Shown: positions 196 to 42,885 of the stretch, one piece after another | Position numbering within the stretch: position 1 is the stretch's first letter | Layout of the letters: the number at the start of each line of letters is the position of its first letter | Source of the DNA: Hymenobacter rubidus | GTDB taxonomy: Bacteria; Bacteroidota; Bacteroidia; Cytophagales; Hymenobacteraceae | Assembly (NCBI RefSeq): GCF_016734815.1 | Contig: NZ_JAERQF010000031.1 | Span: 1 to 64,000 of the forward strand | DNA: 64,000 nt | Direction: 5' to 3' | The notes under the pieces: model-generated | What the model saw: only the letters and a program-made list of their open reading frames with translations | Databases searched by the model: none | What the model was told of the DNA's origin: nothing | Position numbers and translations under genes: made by a program

Positions 196-933
196 CTACC
201 AGGCACTGATGCCCGTTTCCGGGGCGTTGTCGTCGCTAAAGAACTGGCCGGTGGGGCCATCCGGCGCCAATACGGCGGCTTTCACCACGCGCGCCGCCGC
301 ATCGGGCACGGTGCCGGGGCCGCTGTGGTGGTTGAAATCGGTGGCGGTGTAGCCGGGGTCCACGGCGTTCACTTTGAACGGGGTGTCGCGCAGCTCATAG
401 GCCAGCACGATGGTGTACATGTTGAGCGCGGCTTTGGACGAGCCGTAGGCCGCCGTCTTCACAGGGTAGTACTTCCAGCTGGGGTCGGTGTGCAAGGTGA
501 GCGAGCCCAGGCCCGAGGTCACGTTCACGATGCGGGGCTCGGCCGAGGCCCGCAGCAAGTCGAGGAAGGCCTGGGTGGTCTGCACCACGCCAAATACGTT
601 GGTGTCGTACACTTCCTTGAACGTGGCTACGTCGGTAGCCGCCGCCGTTTGGGGCAAAGCCCCGCTGACGCCGGCGTTGTTGATGAGCACGTCGAGCCCG
701 GTTCCTTTCTGGCCGATGGCCTGCCGGGCGGCGGCCACCGAGGCGGCATCGGTTACGTCGAGCTGCACGGGCTCTACCTGGGTGAGGCCTTCGGCGTGGA
801 GCTGGGCCACGGCTTGCCGGCCGTTTTCAAGGCTGCGGCTGCCGAGGTACACGTAGTAGCCCTGCTGGAGCAACTGGCGGGCGGTTTCGAAGCCAATGCT
901 TTTGTTGGCGCCGGTGATGAAGGCGTATTTCAT
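196..933 (-). CDS. SDR family NAD(P)-dependent oxidoreductase
   Basis: A 245-residue short-chain dehydrogenase/reductase, normal for the classical family. The N-terminal Rossmann glycine motif reads TGANKSIG (about residues 7-14), the NNAG motif follows near residue 80, and the active site has a Ser in the VTSGLG strand and a Tyr/Lys pair in YGSSK. The substrate cannot be told; close relatives reduce carbonyls using NADPH. The start at 933 is chosen because the family begins MKYAFITGA; an in-frame upstream ATG would add an unlikely 11 residues. It lies 103 bp downstream of, and in the same direction as, an AraC-type regulator that may control it. Confidence 0.9.
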   Translation of the reverse strand: MKYAFITGANKSIGFETARQLLQQGYYVYLGSRSLENGRQAVAQLHAEGLTQVEPVQLDVTDAASVAAARQAIGQKGTGLDVLINNAGVSGALPQTAAATDVATFKEVYDTNVFGVVQTTQAFLDLLRASAEPRIVNVTSGLGSLTLHTDPSWKYYPVKTAAYGSSKAALNMYTIVLAYELRDTPFKVNAVDPGYTATDFNHHSGPGTVPDAAARVVKAAVLAPDGPTGQFFSDDNAPETGISAW

Positions 934-1036
934 GGGGGAGTTGTGACTGCGTTGATTGAACAGCACAAAAGTCCCCTACCCCGCCGCGCGGCCCTAACGA
1001 GATTCAAACGAAAAAGTAAGAAATTCAAACCGCCGA

Positions 1037-1921
1037 CTAGGCCGCTGTTAGTCTGCCCACCAGCGCGCGGTGGGCCGAGGGCGTGGTGCCGGTTTGCTTC
1101 TTGAAGAAGTTGTTGAAGTAGGTGGGGTACTCGAAGCCGAGGCTGTAGGCAATTTCGGCGGTGGTCCAGTCGGTGTGCTGCAGCAGGGCCCGGGCCTCGC
1201 GCACGATGCGCTCGGCAATGTGCACGGAGGTGGTTTTGCCGGTGAGGTCGCGCACGGCCCGGTTGAGGTGGTTGACGTGCACCGAAAGCTGGCGGGCGAA
1301 GTCGCCGGGCGTGCGCAGCTGCAGGCCGTGGGTGGGCGAGTCGATGGGAAACTGCCGCTCCAGCAGCCCCTGAAACAGGGTTGCAATGCGCGTGGCGGCG
1401 TTGGGGTGCTGGTAGTAGCTGGCCTGCGGCTGCAGCTTCAGGGCCTCGTGAATGAGCAGGTTGAGGTAGTTGCGGATGACTTCCTGCTGGTACACGTAGC
1501 CCGAATTCATCTCCTGCAGCATCTTGCGAAAGAAGTAGCTCAGGTCGGCGTATTGCGCGTCATCCACGAGGTACACTGGGTCGGACCCGAGCCGGAACAG
1601 CGGCGACTCCTGCAGGCTGGCGGCCCGGTCATTCACGATGAGAAACTCCTCGGTGAACATGCACAGGTAGCCGCCCTGCTCCTCCGACACCCGCTCCCAG
1701 GAATACGGAATCAGCGGGTTGGAAAACACCAGCGCGGGCTGGTCGATGAGCACGCCGCGGGTGGCGTAGTTGTAGCGGCTGCTGCCGGTGAGCAGCGAAA
1801 TCTTGTAGTAATCGCGCCGCCCAAACGCCACCTTGTCGCTGATGAACTGCTCGCGGGCATACACGTTGAAGCTGCCCGAGGCGATGGGTGTGTTGGCGGG
1901 CGTGAGGGAATGGGGCGACAT
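1037..1921 (-). CDS. AraC family transcriptional regulator
   Basis: A 294-residue one-component regulator. The N-terminal half is a cupin-like sensor domain; the last 100 residues carry two helix-turn-helix motifs, with typical AraC signatures such as TTAEIAYSLGFEYPTYFNNF and FKKQTGTTPSAHR. The ligand is unknown. It precedes an SDR oxidoreductase in the same orientation, a common pairing in which the regulator controls the enzyme. A TACTTTTG element ends only 4 bp before the ATG, so the transcript may be nearly leaderless. The upstream DNA contains a striking array of TTCGGAA sites, which could be its own or another regulator's binding sites (inference). Confidence 0.9.
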   Translation of the reverse strand: MSPHSLTPANTPIASGSFNVYAREQFISDKVAFGRRDYYKISLLTGSSRYNYATRGVLIDQPALVFSNPLIPYSWERVSEEQGGYLCMFTEEFLIVNDRAASLQESPLFRLGSDPVYLVDDAQYADLSYFFRKMLQEMNSGYVYQQEVIRNYLNLLIHEALKLQPQASYYQHPNAATRIATLFQGLLERQFPIDSPTHGLQLRTPGDFARQLSVHVNHLNRAVRDLTGKTTSVHIAERIVREARALLQHTDWTTAEIAYSLGFEYPTYFNNFFKKQTGTTPSAHRALVGRLTAA

Positions 1922-1925
1922 ACTT

Positions 1926-1933
1926 CAAAAGTA
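1926..1933 (-). promoter_or_regulatory. Candidate -7 element of the AraC gene
   Basis: The minus strand reads TACTTTTG, an exact match to the Bacteroidetes -7 consensus TAnnTTTG, with 4 bp between it and the ATG at 1921. No good TTG is present 17-21 bp upstream (TTC at about 17). Transcription would begin at or within a few bases of the start codon. Confidence 0.45.
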
Positions 1934-1962
1934 AGCATATCAAACCGAGCGAAGGTTTATGC

Positions 1963-2280
1963 TTCGGAAGCAAGGTTTACGCTTCGGCACGAAGGTTTAT
2001 GGTTCGGCAAGAAGGTTTGTGCTTCGGAAGCGGTTGGCGGGCGTTCGGAACCGATTGGCGAGCCTTCGGAGGCAAAGTTTGTGCTTCGGAAGCGGCTGGC
2101 GATGCTTCGGAGGCCAAGGTTTGTGGTTCGGAACCCGTTGGCGGGCGTTCGGAAGCCAGGGTTTGTGGTTCGGAAACCGTTGGCGAGGCTTCGGAAGTAG
2201 ATAGCGGGTGTTCGGAAGGGAAGGTTTGTGGTTCGGAAGCGGTTGGCGGGCATTCGGAAGCCGTTGGTGGGGCTTGGGAA
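1963..2280. repeat. Array of 16 TTCGGAA-type sites at 20-21 bp spacing
   Basis: Sixteen copies of TTCGGAA or a one-base variant start at 1963, 1983, 2003, 2023, 2044, 2065, 2085, 2106, 2127, 2148, 2169, 2190, 2211, 2232, 2253 and 2274. The spacing is 20 bp at the left and 21 bp through the rest, close to two helical turns. Many cores sit in the palindrome GCTTCGGAAGC. Two kinds of 21-bp spacer alternate (AAGGTTTGTGG and GTTGGCGGGCG types), giving a 42-bp higher-order period. The array fills the region between the AraC promoter and the upstream lipoprotein gene. All frames stay open because 21 is a multiple of three, but the 20-bp units break any single heptad frame, so coding is unlikely. Confidence 0.9.
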
Positions 2281-2348
2281 ACAGCCCCCCGCTTCCATGC
2301 CGAAAGCGGCAGAAGCGCCCGTAGCTGCCGCCGCTTGCGTTTCAACAG

Positions 2349-3276: not shown

Positions 3277-4683
3277 TTACATGTGAATGGCCCGGCTCTC
3301 CGTCGCCGCCAAACACGCTTCTTTCATGGCCTCGGCGTAGGTGGGGTGCGAGTGGCTCATGCGGGCCACGTCCTCGGCGGAGGCGCGGAACTCCATGGCG
3401 GTCACGGCTTCGGCGATGAGGTCGGCGATGCGCGGGCCAATCATGTGGACGCCCAGGATTTCGTCGGTGGTTATGTCGGCCAGCACCTTCACAAAGCCGT
3501 CGGTGTCGCCGCTGGCGCGGGCGCGGCCGCTGGCTTTGAAGGGGAAGGAGCCCACCTTGTAGGCCTTGCCCTGCTCCTTGAGCTGCTCCTCGGTGTAGCC
3601 CACGCCGGCCACTTCGGGCCAGGTGTACACCACGCCGGGGATGAGCAGGTAGTTGATGTGCGGCTTCTGGCCCACGATGGTTTCGGCCACGAACACGCCT
3701 TCTTCCTCGGCCTTGTGGGCCAGCATGGCGCCCCGAATCACGTCGCCGATGGCGTAGATGCCGGGCACGTTGGTTTGCAGGTGCTCGTCGACCTTGATGC
3801 GGCCGCGCTCTTCCATCTGCACGCCGGCGGCTTCGAGGTTGAGGCCGGCGGTGTAGGGCACGCGGCCCACGGCCACGAGGCAGTAGTCGCCCTCAAACTT
3901 CACTTCCTCGCCCTTGGCGTTGGTGGCCGTCACGGTCACGGTGTCGCCGTCGCGGGTGGCGCCGGTCACTTTGTGCGAGAAGAAGAATTCGATGCCGATT
4001 TTGCCCAGCACGCGCTTCAGCTCTTTGCCCAGGCCGCGGTCCATGGTCGGGATGATGCTGTCCATGAACTCCACCACCGACACTTTGGCGCCGAGGCGGG
4101 CGTACACGGAAGCCATTTCGAGGCCAATCACGCCGCCGCCAATCACAATCATGTGCTTGGGCACTTCACGGATGTTCAGGGCCTCGGTGCTGGTGATGAT
4201 GCGCTCCTTGTCCTGGGCGATGAACGGCAGCACCGTGGGCTTGGAGCCAGTGGCGATGATGACGTTTTTGGTTTCAATCTGCTGGGCTTCGCCGCCTTCG
4301 CGGGGCGCGATGCTGATGTGGTTTTTGTCAACAAAAGAACCCACGCCGGTGAGGACGTCGATTTTGTTCTTCTTCATCAGGTAGGCAATGCCGTCCACGT
4401 TGGCCTTCACCACCCCGGCCTTGCGGTCAATCATGCGGTTCATGTCGACGGTCAGGTTGTCGAGGCCGATGCCGTGCTCGGCAAACACCGAATGGGCGTT
4501 GTGGTAGTGCTCAGAGGAGTCGAGCAGGGCCTTGCTGGGGATGCAGCCCACGTTGAGGCAGGTGCCGCCCAGGGTGGGGTATTTCTCGATGAGGGCCGTT
4601 TTGAGGCCGAGCTGGGCGCAGCGGATGGCCGCTACATAGCCGCCGGGGCCGGAGCCGATGACGGTGACGTCGTATTGATTCAT
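3277..4683 (-). CDS. lpdA: Dihydrolipoyl dehydrogenase (E3)
   Basis: A 468-residue flavoprotein that reoxidises dihydrolipoamide on 2-oxo acid dehydrogenase complexes and the glycine cleavage system, passing electrons to NAD+. Visible are the FAD-binding GSGPGG motif (residues 10-15), the redox disulphide in GGTCLNVGCIPSK (Cys42 and Cys47), the second NAD-binding GGGVIGLE motif near residue 180, the AIGDV FAD motif near 310, and the C-terminal HSHPTYAEA active-site His. Full length for the family. It is not linked to odhA/odhB, which lie about 9 kb away, so it may serve several complexes. A TACCTTCG promoter-like element lies 31 bp upstream. Confidence 0.97.
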   Translation of the reverse strand: MNQYDVTVIGSGPGGYVAAIRCAQLGLKTALIEKYPTLGGTCLNVGCIPSKALLDSSEHYHNAHSVFAEHGIGLDNLTVDMNRMIDRKAGVVKANVDGIAYLMKKNKIDVLTGVGSFVDKNHISIAPREGGEAQQIETKNVIIATGSKPTVLPFIAQDKERIITSTEALNIREVPKHMIVIGGGVIGLEMASVYARLGAKVSVVEFMDSIIPTMDRGLGKELKRVLGKIGIEFFFSHKVTGATRDGDTVTVTATNAKGEEVKFEGDYCLVAVGRVPYTAGLNLEAAGVQMEERGRIKVDEHLQTNVPGIYAIGDVIRGAMLAHKAEEEGVFVAETIVGQKPHINYLLIPGVVYTWPEVAGVGYTEEQLKEQGKAYKVGSFPFKASGRARASGDTDGFVKVLADITTDEILGVHMIGPRIADLIAEAVTAMEFRASAEDVARMSHSHPTYAEAMKEACLAATESRAIHM

Positions 4684-39611: not shown

Positions 39612-42062
39612 ATGAGAACAAAAATTACTCGCTTGGCTTGCCTGCTGACGGTGCTCGCCGCCTGGGCCATGCGGCCCATACTGGCTCAGACGGTATACGT
39701 GCCCGCGGCCGTGACCGGCTACACGGCCGACGTTATTGCCAACGGCGCCGGCACGGTGGCCAGCTCCACCACCAACACCGTGGACCGGGGCAATGCCACC
39801 GTGAAGTGGTGCTTTGCCAACCACACCTTCACCAATCCTGCGGGCATCAGCCTGCTCAACCAGCCGGCTTTGCCCGACAACGGCCTCATCACGAGTATTT
39901 CTACGCCCGGCCTCACCTTTCAGATGGCGGCGGCCAACGTCAACAACTCGCTCCGCATCGACGGGGCTGCCTCGGGCACCCTCACGCTGGTAACGCCGCA
40001 GCCCTGCAGCGAGGTGATGGTGCTGGCCACCGAAGGCAACGGCAGCACCGCGCCCAAAACTTTTACTGTTACCTTTACGGACGGCACCACCCAGGTGTTC
40101 ACCAATATCGTGGTACCCGACTGGTTCAACGGCACCATCACGCCGGCCATTCTGGTGGGCAGCCGTGTGGGCTACGTCGACAACAGCGTGGACGTGCAAA
40201 CCACCAACCCCCGCCTCTACGAAGTGCGGCTCACGCTGAACGTGGCCAACTACAGCAAGCTGGTGCAAAGCGTGAACGTGTCGAAAACCTCGACCGACCC
40301 GGTGCTGAACGTAATGGGCATCAGCCTGGGCTCGAACTGCCTGGGCGTGCCCACGCCGGGCACGGCCAATGCTGCCCCCACCACGGTGTGTTCCGGCAGC
40401 CCCACGCTGCTCACGCTCACCGGCAATACCGTTTCGGGCGGCATCACCTTCCAGTGGCAGTCGTCTACCAACGGCGGCACCACCTGGACCGATATCGCAG
40501 GGGCTACCGCCAATTTCTATTCTGCCCGCCCCACCGTCACGACCCAGTACCGGGCCCGCGTGACGTGCAGCCTGCAATCGGCTATTTCTACGCCCGTGAC
40601 GGTCACGGTGCCGCCTTCCGTGGCTACAGTGGCCTACAACTCCACGCCCGGTACGCCCGCCAGCTTCTGCCTGGGCGGCACCGCCCCCGTGGTAACGGCC
40701 ACCCCCGCCGGCGGCCGCTTCACCAGCAGCAACGCCGGCCTCGTGCTTGATGCCACCACCGGCACCCTGAACCTGGGCGCTTCCACGGCCGGCACCTACA
40801 CCGTCACCTACACCGTGACCACGCCCTGCCCGGCCACCGGCACCACCACCGTCACGGTGAACCAGACCATTGCGGCCGTGGCTTACAGCGCGGCCTCGTT
40901 TTGCCGCAACAGCACCACTACCGTGGTTCCGGCCGTGACTCCGGCGGGCGGCACGTTCACCGCTACCACGGGCCTTTCCATCAACGCTACTACCGGTGCC
41001 ATCAACCTGCCCAACTCGCTGCCGGGCACCTACACCGTCACGTATGTGAGCGGCGGCACCTGCCCCGGCACCGCCACCACCACCGTTACCGTAAGCGAAA
41101 CCATCGCCACGCTGGCCTACAGCGCCTCTTCGTATTGCCGCACGGGACAAACCACTTCGCCCACGCCAACGGTAACGCCGGCGGGCGGCGCGTTTACCAG
41201 CACTGCGGGCCTGTCGCTTAACGCGACCACAGGCGCCATCAACCTGACGGTTTCGCAGCCGGGCACCTACACCGTCACCTACGTGAGCGGCGGTGCCTGC
41301 CCCGGCGTGGCCACCGCGAATGTTACCGTGACCGAAACGGTGCCCCGCCTGGCCTATTCTGGGGTCAGCACGCCGCCTACGTTTTGCGCGTCGGGTACGG
41401 CTTCGGTGGTGACGGCTACGCCGGCCGGAGGCACGTTCAGCAGCACGACGGGCCTGGCCATTAACGCCACTACGGGAGTGGTGAACCTGGCCTCGTCCAC
41501 GCCCGGCACTTATACCGTGACCTACACAGTCGCAACGCCCTGCCCGGCTTCTACCACGGCCACTTTCACCATCTCGCCGCCGGTGGCCGCGTTCAGCTAT
41601 GCCTGCCCGCCCTTCTACCAGAACGGCCCGGCAGCGGTGCCCAACGTGCCGGCCGGAGGCGGTACTTTTTCGGCTCCGGCCGGGCTCACCATCAACCCGA
41701 CCACGGGCGTGGTGGACCTCACCAACTCGACCATGGGCAACTACACCATTTCCTACACCACGGCCAATGGCTGCGTGGGCACCGCCCCCTTCCAGGTGGT
41801 TGACAGGTTGATATTCCCGAACGTCATCACGCCCAACGGCGACGGCAAAAACGACGCGCTGAAGCCCAACCTGCCCAACGTGACCGGCTACCACATGCAG
41901 ATTTACAGCCGCTGGGGCATCAAGGTGTTCGATGGCCGTGACCCCGCCCAGGCCTGGAGCGCCGCCGACAACAGCGGCGGCATGTACTACTACCAACTCG
42001 ACTACACCGACTGCACCGGCAAAGCGCAGTCCCTCAAAAGCTGGGTTGACGTCATCAAATGA
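39612..42062 (+). CDS. T9SS type B sorted repeat protein (CHU_C domain)
   Basis: An 816-residue surface protein. A signal peptide (residues 1-25, ending ILAQ) is followed by a globular region, an Ig-like domain near 255-330 (ITFQWQSSTNGGTTWTDIAG), then five tandem repeats of about 80 residues (starting near 339, 422, 500, 578 and 660), each with ATPAGGxF, INATTG and GTYTVTY motifs. The last 85 residues are a gliding-motility-associated C-terminal (CHU_C) domain: FPNVITPNGDGKND, then IYSRWGIKVFDG. It is secreted by T9SS and probably is an adhesin. A terminator follows 16 bp after the stop. Confidence 0.92.
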   Translation: MRTKITRLACLLTVLAAWAMRPILAQTVYVPAAVTGYTADVIANGAGTVASSTTNTVDRGNATVKWCFANHTFTNPAGISLLNQPALPDNGLITSISTPGLTFQMAAANVNNSLRIDGAASGTLTLVTPQPCSEVMVLATEGNGSTAPKTFTVTFTDGTTQVFTNIVVPDWFNGTITPAILVGSRVGYVDNSVDVQTTNPRLYEVRLTLNVANYSKLVQSVNVSKTSTDPVLNVMGISLGSNCLGVPTPGTANAAPTTVCSGSPTLLTLTGNTVSGGITFQWQSSTNGGTTWTDIAGATANFYSARPTVTTQYRARVTCSLQSAISTPVTVTVPPSVATVAYNSTPGTPASFCLGGTAPVVTATPAGGRFTSSNAGLVLDATTGTLNLGASTAGTYTVTYTVTTPCPATGTTTVTVNQTIAAVAYSAASFCRNSTTTVVPAVTPAGGTFTATTGLSINATTGAINLPNSLPGTYTVTYVSGGTCPGTATTTVTVSETIATLAYSASSYCRTGQTTSPTPTVTPAGGAFTSTAGLSLNATTGAINLTVSQPGTYTVTYVSGGACPGVATANVTVTETVPRLAYSGVSTPPTFCASGTASVVTATPAGGTFSSTTGLAINATTGVVNLASSTPGTYTVTYTVATPCPASTTATFTISPPVAAFSYACPPFYQNGPAAVPNVPAGGGTFSAPAGLTINPTTGVVDLTNSTMGNYTISYTTANGCVGTAPFQVVDRLIFPNVITPNGDGKNDALKPNLPNVTGYHMQIYSRWGIKVFDGRDPAQAWSAADNSGGMYYYQLDYTDCTGKAQSLKSWVDVIK

Positions 42063-42682: not shown

Positions 42683-42885
42683 CGCTTCGCTTAATGAGCA
42701 ATGAAGAATGAGGAATGAAGAATTACCCTGACGGGTTAAGGATTTAAGTATTTGCTGCAAAAGAACGTTATTCCCTGCGGGAAGGCCGTATCTGGCAGCC
42801 GACGTGCCTTTCTTTGCAACGGCACGGCACCGTTGGCCGGGCTCCTTCTTCATTCCTCATTCTTCATTGCTCATTAAGCGAAGCG
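42683..42885. repeat. 40-bp perfect inverted repeat between ridA and the TonB-like gene
   Basis: The arms 42683-42722 and 42846-42885 are exact reverse complements over 40 bp (core AATGAGCAATGAAGAATGAG). Each arm stops 2-4 bp before a start codon, so both messages would carry the same 40-nt leader. The 123 bp between the arms holds the promoters and a small hairpin (CAACGG/CCGTTG near 42818). Inversion between the arms would exchange the two promoters while leaving both leaders intact. Confidence 0.9.

Follow-up and report, generated by a model that had tools for sequence, protein, structure and literature searches.

Plasmid iterons are direct repeats spaced about two helix turns apart and bound by Rep initiators, and partition sites such as sopC and parC are long tandem binding arrays that coevolve with their cognate protein. 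Single-base variants that are common genome-wide are familiar from the dialects of DNA uptake sequences, which are numerous scattered single sites. Two repeat families are also relevant: BrickBuilt of Porphyromonas gingivalis is a minisatellite or MITE with a 23-nt unit and inverted-repeat ends (PMC4596501), and the TAACTGA family, which occurs in Beggiatoaceae, Cyanobacteria, and some Bacteroidetes, consists of direct repeats with a 7-bp unit of constant sequence (PMC4679880).

In this study, we have analyzed a 64,000-nucleotide stretch of the Hymenobacter rubidus genome (the window) that carries a helix-phased array of 16 repeat units. As in iterons, the repeats are direct and in helical phase and may have a dedicated protein, for which our candidate is an uncharacterized family of ~232 amino acids (aa); unlike iterons, arrays of this kind are chromosomal and stand at several loci beside housekeeping genes, and no Rep-like family was recognized in the associated protein (17 members, Pfam and NCBIfam). 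They resemble sopC and parC in being long and tandem and in having a putative cognate protein; however, they are chromosomal and occupy multiple loci, and no partition protein was recognized among the family proteins scanned. A single-base variant is common to a genome, as in DNA uptake sequence dialects, but in phased arrays rather than scattered single sites. The arrays share with BrickBuilt their occurrence in Bacteroidota, intergenic position, tandem units, distinct leader and tail, and several copies per genome; they differ in their 20/21-bp steps, few copies, one-base dialect, and tie to a protein family, and in having no terminal inverted repeats in the three arrays inspected (PMC4596501). 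Like the TAACTGA repeats, they are intergenic direct repeats, often located before genes, of unknown function; in contrast, their units are long and change in sequence while the step stays constant (PMC4679880). The array system was identified neither in the libraries searched nor in searches of open-licence PMC papers. The features of the locus are as follows.

196 to 966, minus strand: SDR (adh_short) gene, a neighbor
1037 to 1921, minus strand: AraC-family regulator gene (HTH_18, HTH_AraC), a neighbor outside the system
1926 to 1944, minus strand: promoter-like box of the AraC gene, TTTGAT...TACTTTTG, present in orthologues whether or not they have the array
1952 to 2281, plus strand: helix-phased array of 16 units in the order AAAABBABABABBABB
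1952 to 2030, plus strand: leader of four A units (AAGGTTTRTGS plus core) at 20-bp steps
2031 to 2260, plus strand: body of mixed B and A units, with core steps of 20 or 21 bp
2261 to 2281, plus strand: final unit, with the deviating core TTGGGAAA
2349 to 3248, minus strand: gene of unknown function, a neighbor, its 3' end 67 bp from the B end of the array
3277 to 4683, minus strand: lpdA-like dehydrogenase gene, whose homologue adjoins an array in several relatives

Each unit consists of spacer A (AAGGTTTGTGG) or spacer B (CGGTTGGCGGGC) followed by the core T-N-C-S-G-A-A-R. The sequence-only reading of this DNA had reported 16 cores at 20- to 21-bp steps, and this was borne out: the core positions run from 1963 to 2274, with steps of 20, 20, 20, 21, 21, and 20 bp and then nine of 21 bp, so that the 20/21-bp step is kept over many units, and the window contains a chain of 15 TTCGG motifs at such steps, compared with a longest chain of 2 in 200 mononucleotide shuffles. 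Its description of every core as TTCGGAA is correct for 11 of the 16; four others are TTCGG with a different tail, and the last is TTGGGAA. The variable core base is T in all 16 units, and GGGAAG cores resembling TTGGGAAA terminate several other arrays. The supposed placing of most copies within a palindrome does not stand, as the exact sequence GCTTCGGAAGC occurs just 3 times, and the alternation of spacers with a 42-bp period describes only part of the array because of its unit order. Tandem Repeats Finder also detected the array, with periods of 20, 21, 40, 42, 62, 63, and 84 bp. Scattered single units in the same genome are not beyond chance, since 26 pattern matches were found against 49 for the reversed control.

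A search of related genomes for the unit uncovered arrays at several loci in part of the genus. Twenty of 120 Hymenobacter genomes matched the sequence-only model at an E value of ≤0.001, a count for which part of the candidates were scored, so that misses are possible, and whose weakest matches may be other kinds of array. The family-level scan gave matches in 18 of 200 genomes and in one of six genera, and all named matches of the window unit were from Hymenobacter. The window's own genome (G000) has a second array, of five units, on a different contig. The array sites that recur across species are one that follows groL, one that adjoins lpdA and a SnoaL-like gene, and those that precede serC and the gene for the ~232-aa uncharacterized protein; the names groL, lpdA, and serC are taken from our reading of the sequences, with an Aminotran_5 match in addition for serC. 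The arrays lie in both orientations relative to genes, and also between converging genes, and the number of units varies between species.

For the unit statistics, 31 arrays of 14 genomes were parsed, giving 152 A units and 210 B units. A score or genome filter removed the arrays of L160 to L165 and, in L131 and L136, the weaker second array; units scoring <5 were also left out. Core-to-core steps were 20 bp (100 cases) or 21 bp (214 cases) in all 314 adjacent pairs, although the parser permitted other linkers; pairs with a missing unit between them were excluded. Similarity of units in register between arrays was weakly above that of shuffles (mean z of 0.58 over 435 pairs) and about equal for array pairs with the same and with different core letters; position-by-position orthology of units was rejected at so low a mean. 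Other arrays with 20- to 21-bp or 42-bp periods and different or diverged units were seen at L162, L163, L164:1-480, and L165, none of them seen beside a gene of the ~232-aa family.

The units of one array have in common above all a single base. The second base of the core, which is column 13 of the A unit and column 15 of the B unit, is T, C, or G, with A seen once in 362 units, and its agreement within arrays was 0.771, compared with 0.379 on permutation (2,000 permutations; maximum, 0.418). In B column 15, agreement was 0.81 within an array, 0.66 with other arrays of the same genome, and 0.35 with other genomes; in A column 13, it was 0.76 within arrays and 0.33 between genomes. Four columns were left unscored by the parser, namely, columns 13 and 19 of the A unit and columns 13 and 15 of the B unit; A column 19 (0.36 within arrays versus 0.33 between genomes) and B column 13 (0.43 versus 0.36) showed hardly any excess. 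A smaller within-array excess at the core columns adjoining the variable base is due in part to arrays with the word TTG, and there was a slight excess at B column 2. Outside the core word, units were hardly more alike within an array than between species across the 31 arrays.

This base also agrees across unlinked loci of one genome (0.612 versus 0.381; P = 0.0003, permuted within sites, with site labels assigned by hand from locus contexts), and it does so when the sister genome G124 is removed (0.599 versus 0.388; P = 0.0005), whereas orthologous sites in different genomes showed no extra agreement (0.341 versus a background of 0.354). No comparable genome effect was seen in other columns, the nearest being A columns 14 and 15, which also belong to the core. 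Because the base agrees across loci and the other columns do not, a genome-wide influence appears to act on the core word. There are exceptions, since G000, G021, and G105 contain arrays with different letters. Gene conversion between arrays is disfavored as the source of this agreement, because the rest of the unit would have been carried along, and no adjoining column follows beyond the core word.

The candidate reader of the arrays is the ~232-aa protein (MDNNKLDAQLRRD...), the gene for which has an array upstream in nine genomes. The distance from the end of the array to the ATG is 92 to 93 bp or about 70 to 72 bp; in G124, the array is displaced from the gene by several hundred base pairs. 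Full-length homologues with about 50% identity or more were found in 12 of 120 genomes of the genus, and 11 of these 12 genomes are strong array carriers; this co-occurrence is partly phylogeny, because both the gene and the arrays are confined to part of the genus. The protein had no significant relative in Pfam, NCBIfam, PHROG, PADLOC, or the PDB, 17 family members gave no meaningful Pfam or NCBIfam match and no recognizable DNA-binding domain, and an AlphaFold2 model, with a pLDDT of 43, was too poor to indicate a fold.

In 12 arrays located elsewhere than at the family gene, the core word matches that of the gene-linked array in the same genome (0.564 versus 0.249), and none of 20,000 permutations gave a match as high. 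G021 and G089 each have two family genes, the arrays of which bear two different words. Among 10 proteins, the residue in column 112 follows the word, with E where the word is T, A where it is C, and K where it is G; such a column arises in 2 of 3,150 relabelings, although the statistic ignores the tree and ten proteins are few, and the two K (G-word) proteins do not group in a poorly resolved tree. Coherence of the arrays was 0.89 at the family gene, 0.70 in genomes with a cognate gene, and 0.60 in genomes without one; the last two values do not differ significantly (P = 0.13).

The window array has no family gene about 100 bp downstream, and its unit sequence is the basis for classing it as a dispersed copy; tblastn over the initial 20 kb of the window found no fragment of the family gene. 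A close cognate gene is absent from the window's genome, yet the array is fully coherent (T in 16/16). The sole family member found in that genome, L319 (G000:C11:130699-131361), is distant (E value, 8.4e-43), and the 520 bp preceding it contain no array. In several genomes, pieces of the family gene are scattered and always represent its C-terminal part; they encode about 35 to 80 aa, some with stops (L219, L222, L223, L212 to L215, and L221).

The association of gene and array extends beyond the genus. Distant homologues had upstream arrays with 20/21- or 42-bp periods and other sequence at 15 of 18 genes, and a second set of family genes had upstream arrays at 8 of 10. With a wider profile, 395 Bacteroidota genomes were searched, and 14 of them yielded a total of 29 family genes; 26 of these genes lay outside the profile, and the gene start could be mapped for 23 of the 26. 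An array was scored when autocorrelation reached at least 0.55 at a period of 20, 21, 41, or 42 within 520 bp upstream, and 18 of the 23 genes passed, compared with 5 of 1,520 segments taken from the genome of the window; of 58 outer ends of the same loci, 1 passed. The five genes that failed were L319, L341, L325, L326, and L335, of which L335 fell just below the threshold and L325 has degenerate repeats that are visible by eye. Similarity of unit consensus sequences between family genes was at chance (mean, 9.7 of 21 positions, versus 9.4 when shuffled). Proteins that are 92 to 95% identical had unit similarities of 14 and 17 of 21, paralogues with 65% identity had 10 of 21, and the arrays of more distant genus genes mostly showed chance similarity to the unit of the window family. 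Chance similarity of units together with frequent upstream arrays indicates that each gene has a unit sequence of its own, whereas the step and the location of the array are conserved.

Judging from these sequence comparisons, we consider it about an even call that the array in the window is one of the dispersed copies of a multi-site, helix-phased array bound by a cognate protein. Cooperative binding at multiple sites, which the sequence-only reading had raised, is favored indirectly by the phasing of the sites on one face of the helix (314 of 314 steps of 20 or 21 bp); the part of that suggestion that involved AraC was not sustained. We postulate that the cognate protein, for which the lineage's own family member is the most likely candidate, would bind the whole array cooperatively and read the core base, that it would control its own gene and mark or control the other array loci, and that protein and sites would drift together. 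The window array would then be an orphan that has outlived its close cognate gene, or it would be read by another protein. More tentatively, and with the balance slightly against it, the family and its private arrays may represent a new recognition class in which dispersed arrays track the protein base by base, in the manner of a centromere. If so, a protein family unnamed in the libraries searched would read DNA, its target array being evident from the sequence upstream of each gene, and it would provide dozens of natural protein-array pairs with different specificities and constant geometry. It would also exemplify, in bacteria, base-specific coevolution of a protein with many dispersed sites and would make it possible to test how recognition drifts completely while spacing stays fixed.

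One alternative is that the arrays are a MITE-like mobile element, comparable to BrickBuilt, with a leader and a tail that has spread between genes and has no host function, with the shared base a mark of recent copying. Several intergenic copies per genome, a defined A leader and a deviating last core, presence or absence at the AraC locus, and the scattering of family-gene fragments are all consistent with this explanation; however, recent copying predicts likeness in all columns, whereas only the core base is alike, no terminal inverted repeats were found at the ends of three arrays, and the same array sites are kept across species. On balance, we regard a mobile element as unlikely.

It can also be envisioned that the array is transcribed and that its repeated cores serve as a target or a structure at the RNA level, in which the core base would pair with a genome-specific RNA. 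The window array folds better than shuffles on either strand (z of -2.6 and -3.0), and a one-base dialect could track a pairing partner as well as a protein, but near-palindromic cores alone may explain the folds. The orientation of the arrays either way relative to genes, some of them between converging genes, also tells against an RNA, as does the strict two-turn spacing, which is a property of DNA. A known RNA family was rejected: Rfam had none in the arrays of four loci, with one subthreshold match elsewhere in L035. We therefore consider an RNA-level element improbable.

Tandem repetition and a copy number that differs between species are what an ordinary, functionless minisatellite of 21-bp units grown by slippage would show, and this had been offered as the alternative to an operator. 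Slippage predicts likeness at every variable column; this was not seen, since units within an array are not homogenized except in the core word. Moreover, steps are never other than 20 or 21 bp, and there is a tie to one protein family across the phylum. A minisatellite is thus strongly disfavored and very unlikely.

The position of the array first suggested control of the adjacent AraC gene. The array does begin close to it: the -7 element, which on the minus strand reads as the CAAAAGTA box at 1926 to 1933, is 18 bp from the first unit and 29 bp from the first core, where the earlier reading had given about 30 bp. Directly before the AraC start is a TTTGATTTGCTTA-like box (1926 to 1944) that persists in orthologues whose proteins are as little as about 65% identical and that may be the real AraC operator or promoter. 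An array stands directly 5' of the AraC orthologue in four genomes (G000, G063, G124, and G024), but G023, G033, and G027 retain the promoter box with no array upstream, although an operator should be present wherever AraC and its promoter are kept. In G023, the AraC protein is 90% identical and the SDR gene is also retained, and the upstream sequence is too different to define the borders of an empty site. Because the array family occupies other loci, unrelated to AraC, and because of the G023 case, we conclude that the array is most probably not AraC's, and an operator of this gene is a highly improbable reading.

A heptapeptide-repeat protein, with 21 bp as seven codons, is scarcely credible even though open frames run across the array, because A-to-A steps of 20 bp (74 of 75 cases) break the frame and because GGTTT, a run of five bases in the A spacer, hardly varies even at third codon positions.

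Other readings were also rejected. A CRISPR array needs near-identical repeats separated by unique spacers, and here both halves of the 21-bp unit recur. For viral carriage, viral_contigs gave no exact pattern match; it contained 83 pattern stretches but no relative of the protein. For plasmid carriage, neither the array DNA nor two family proteins had a plasmid match.

Tandem repeats of other kinds are also present in the window. Short 14-bp repeats lie at 42693 to 42723 and 42842 to 42875, and the same genome has a stretch with a period of 14 at L278:14323-14574. An imperfect 237-bp tandem repeat at 40791 to 41338 probably represents repeated domains inside a coding gene.
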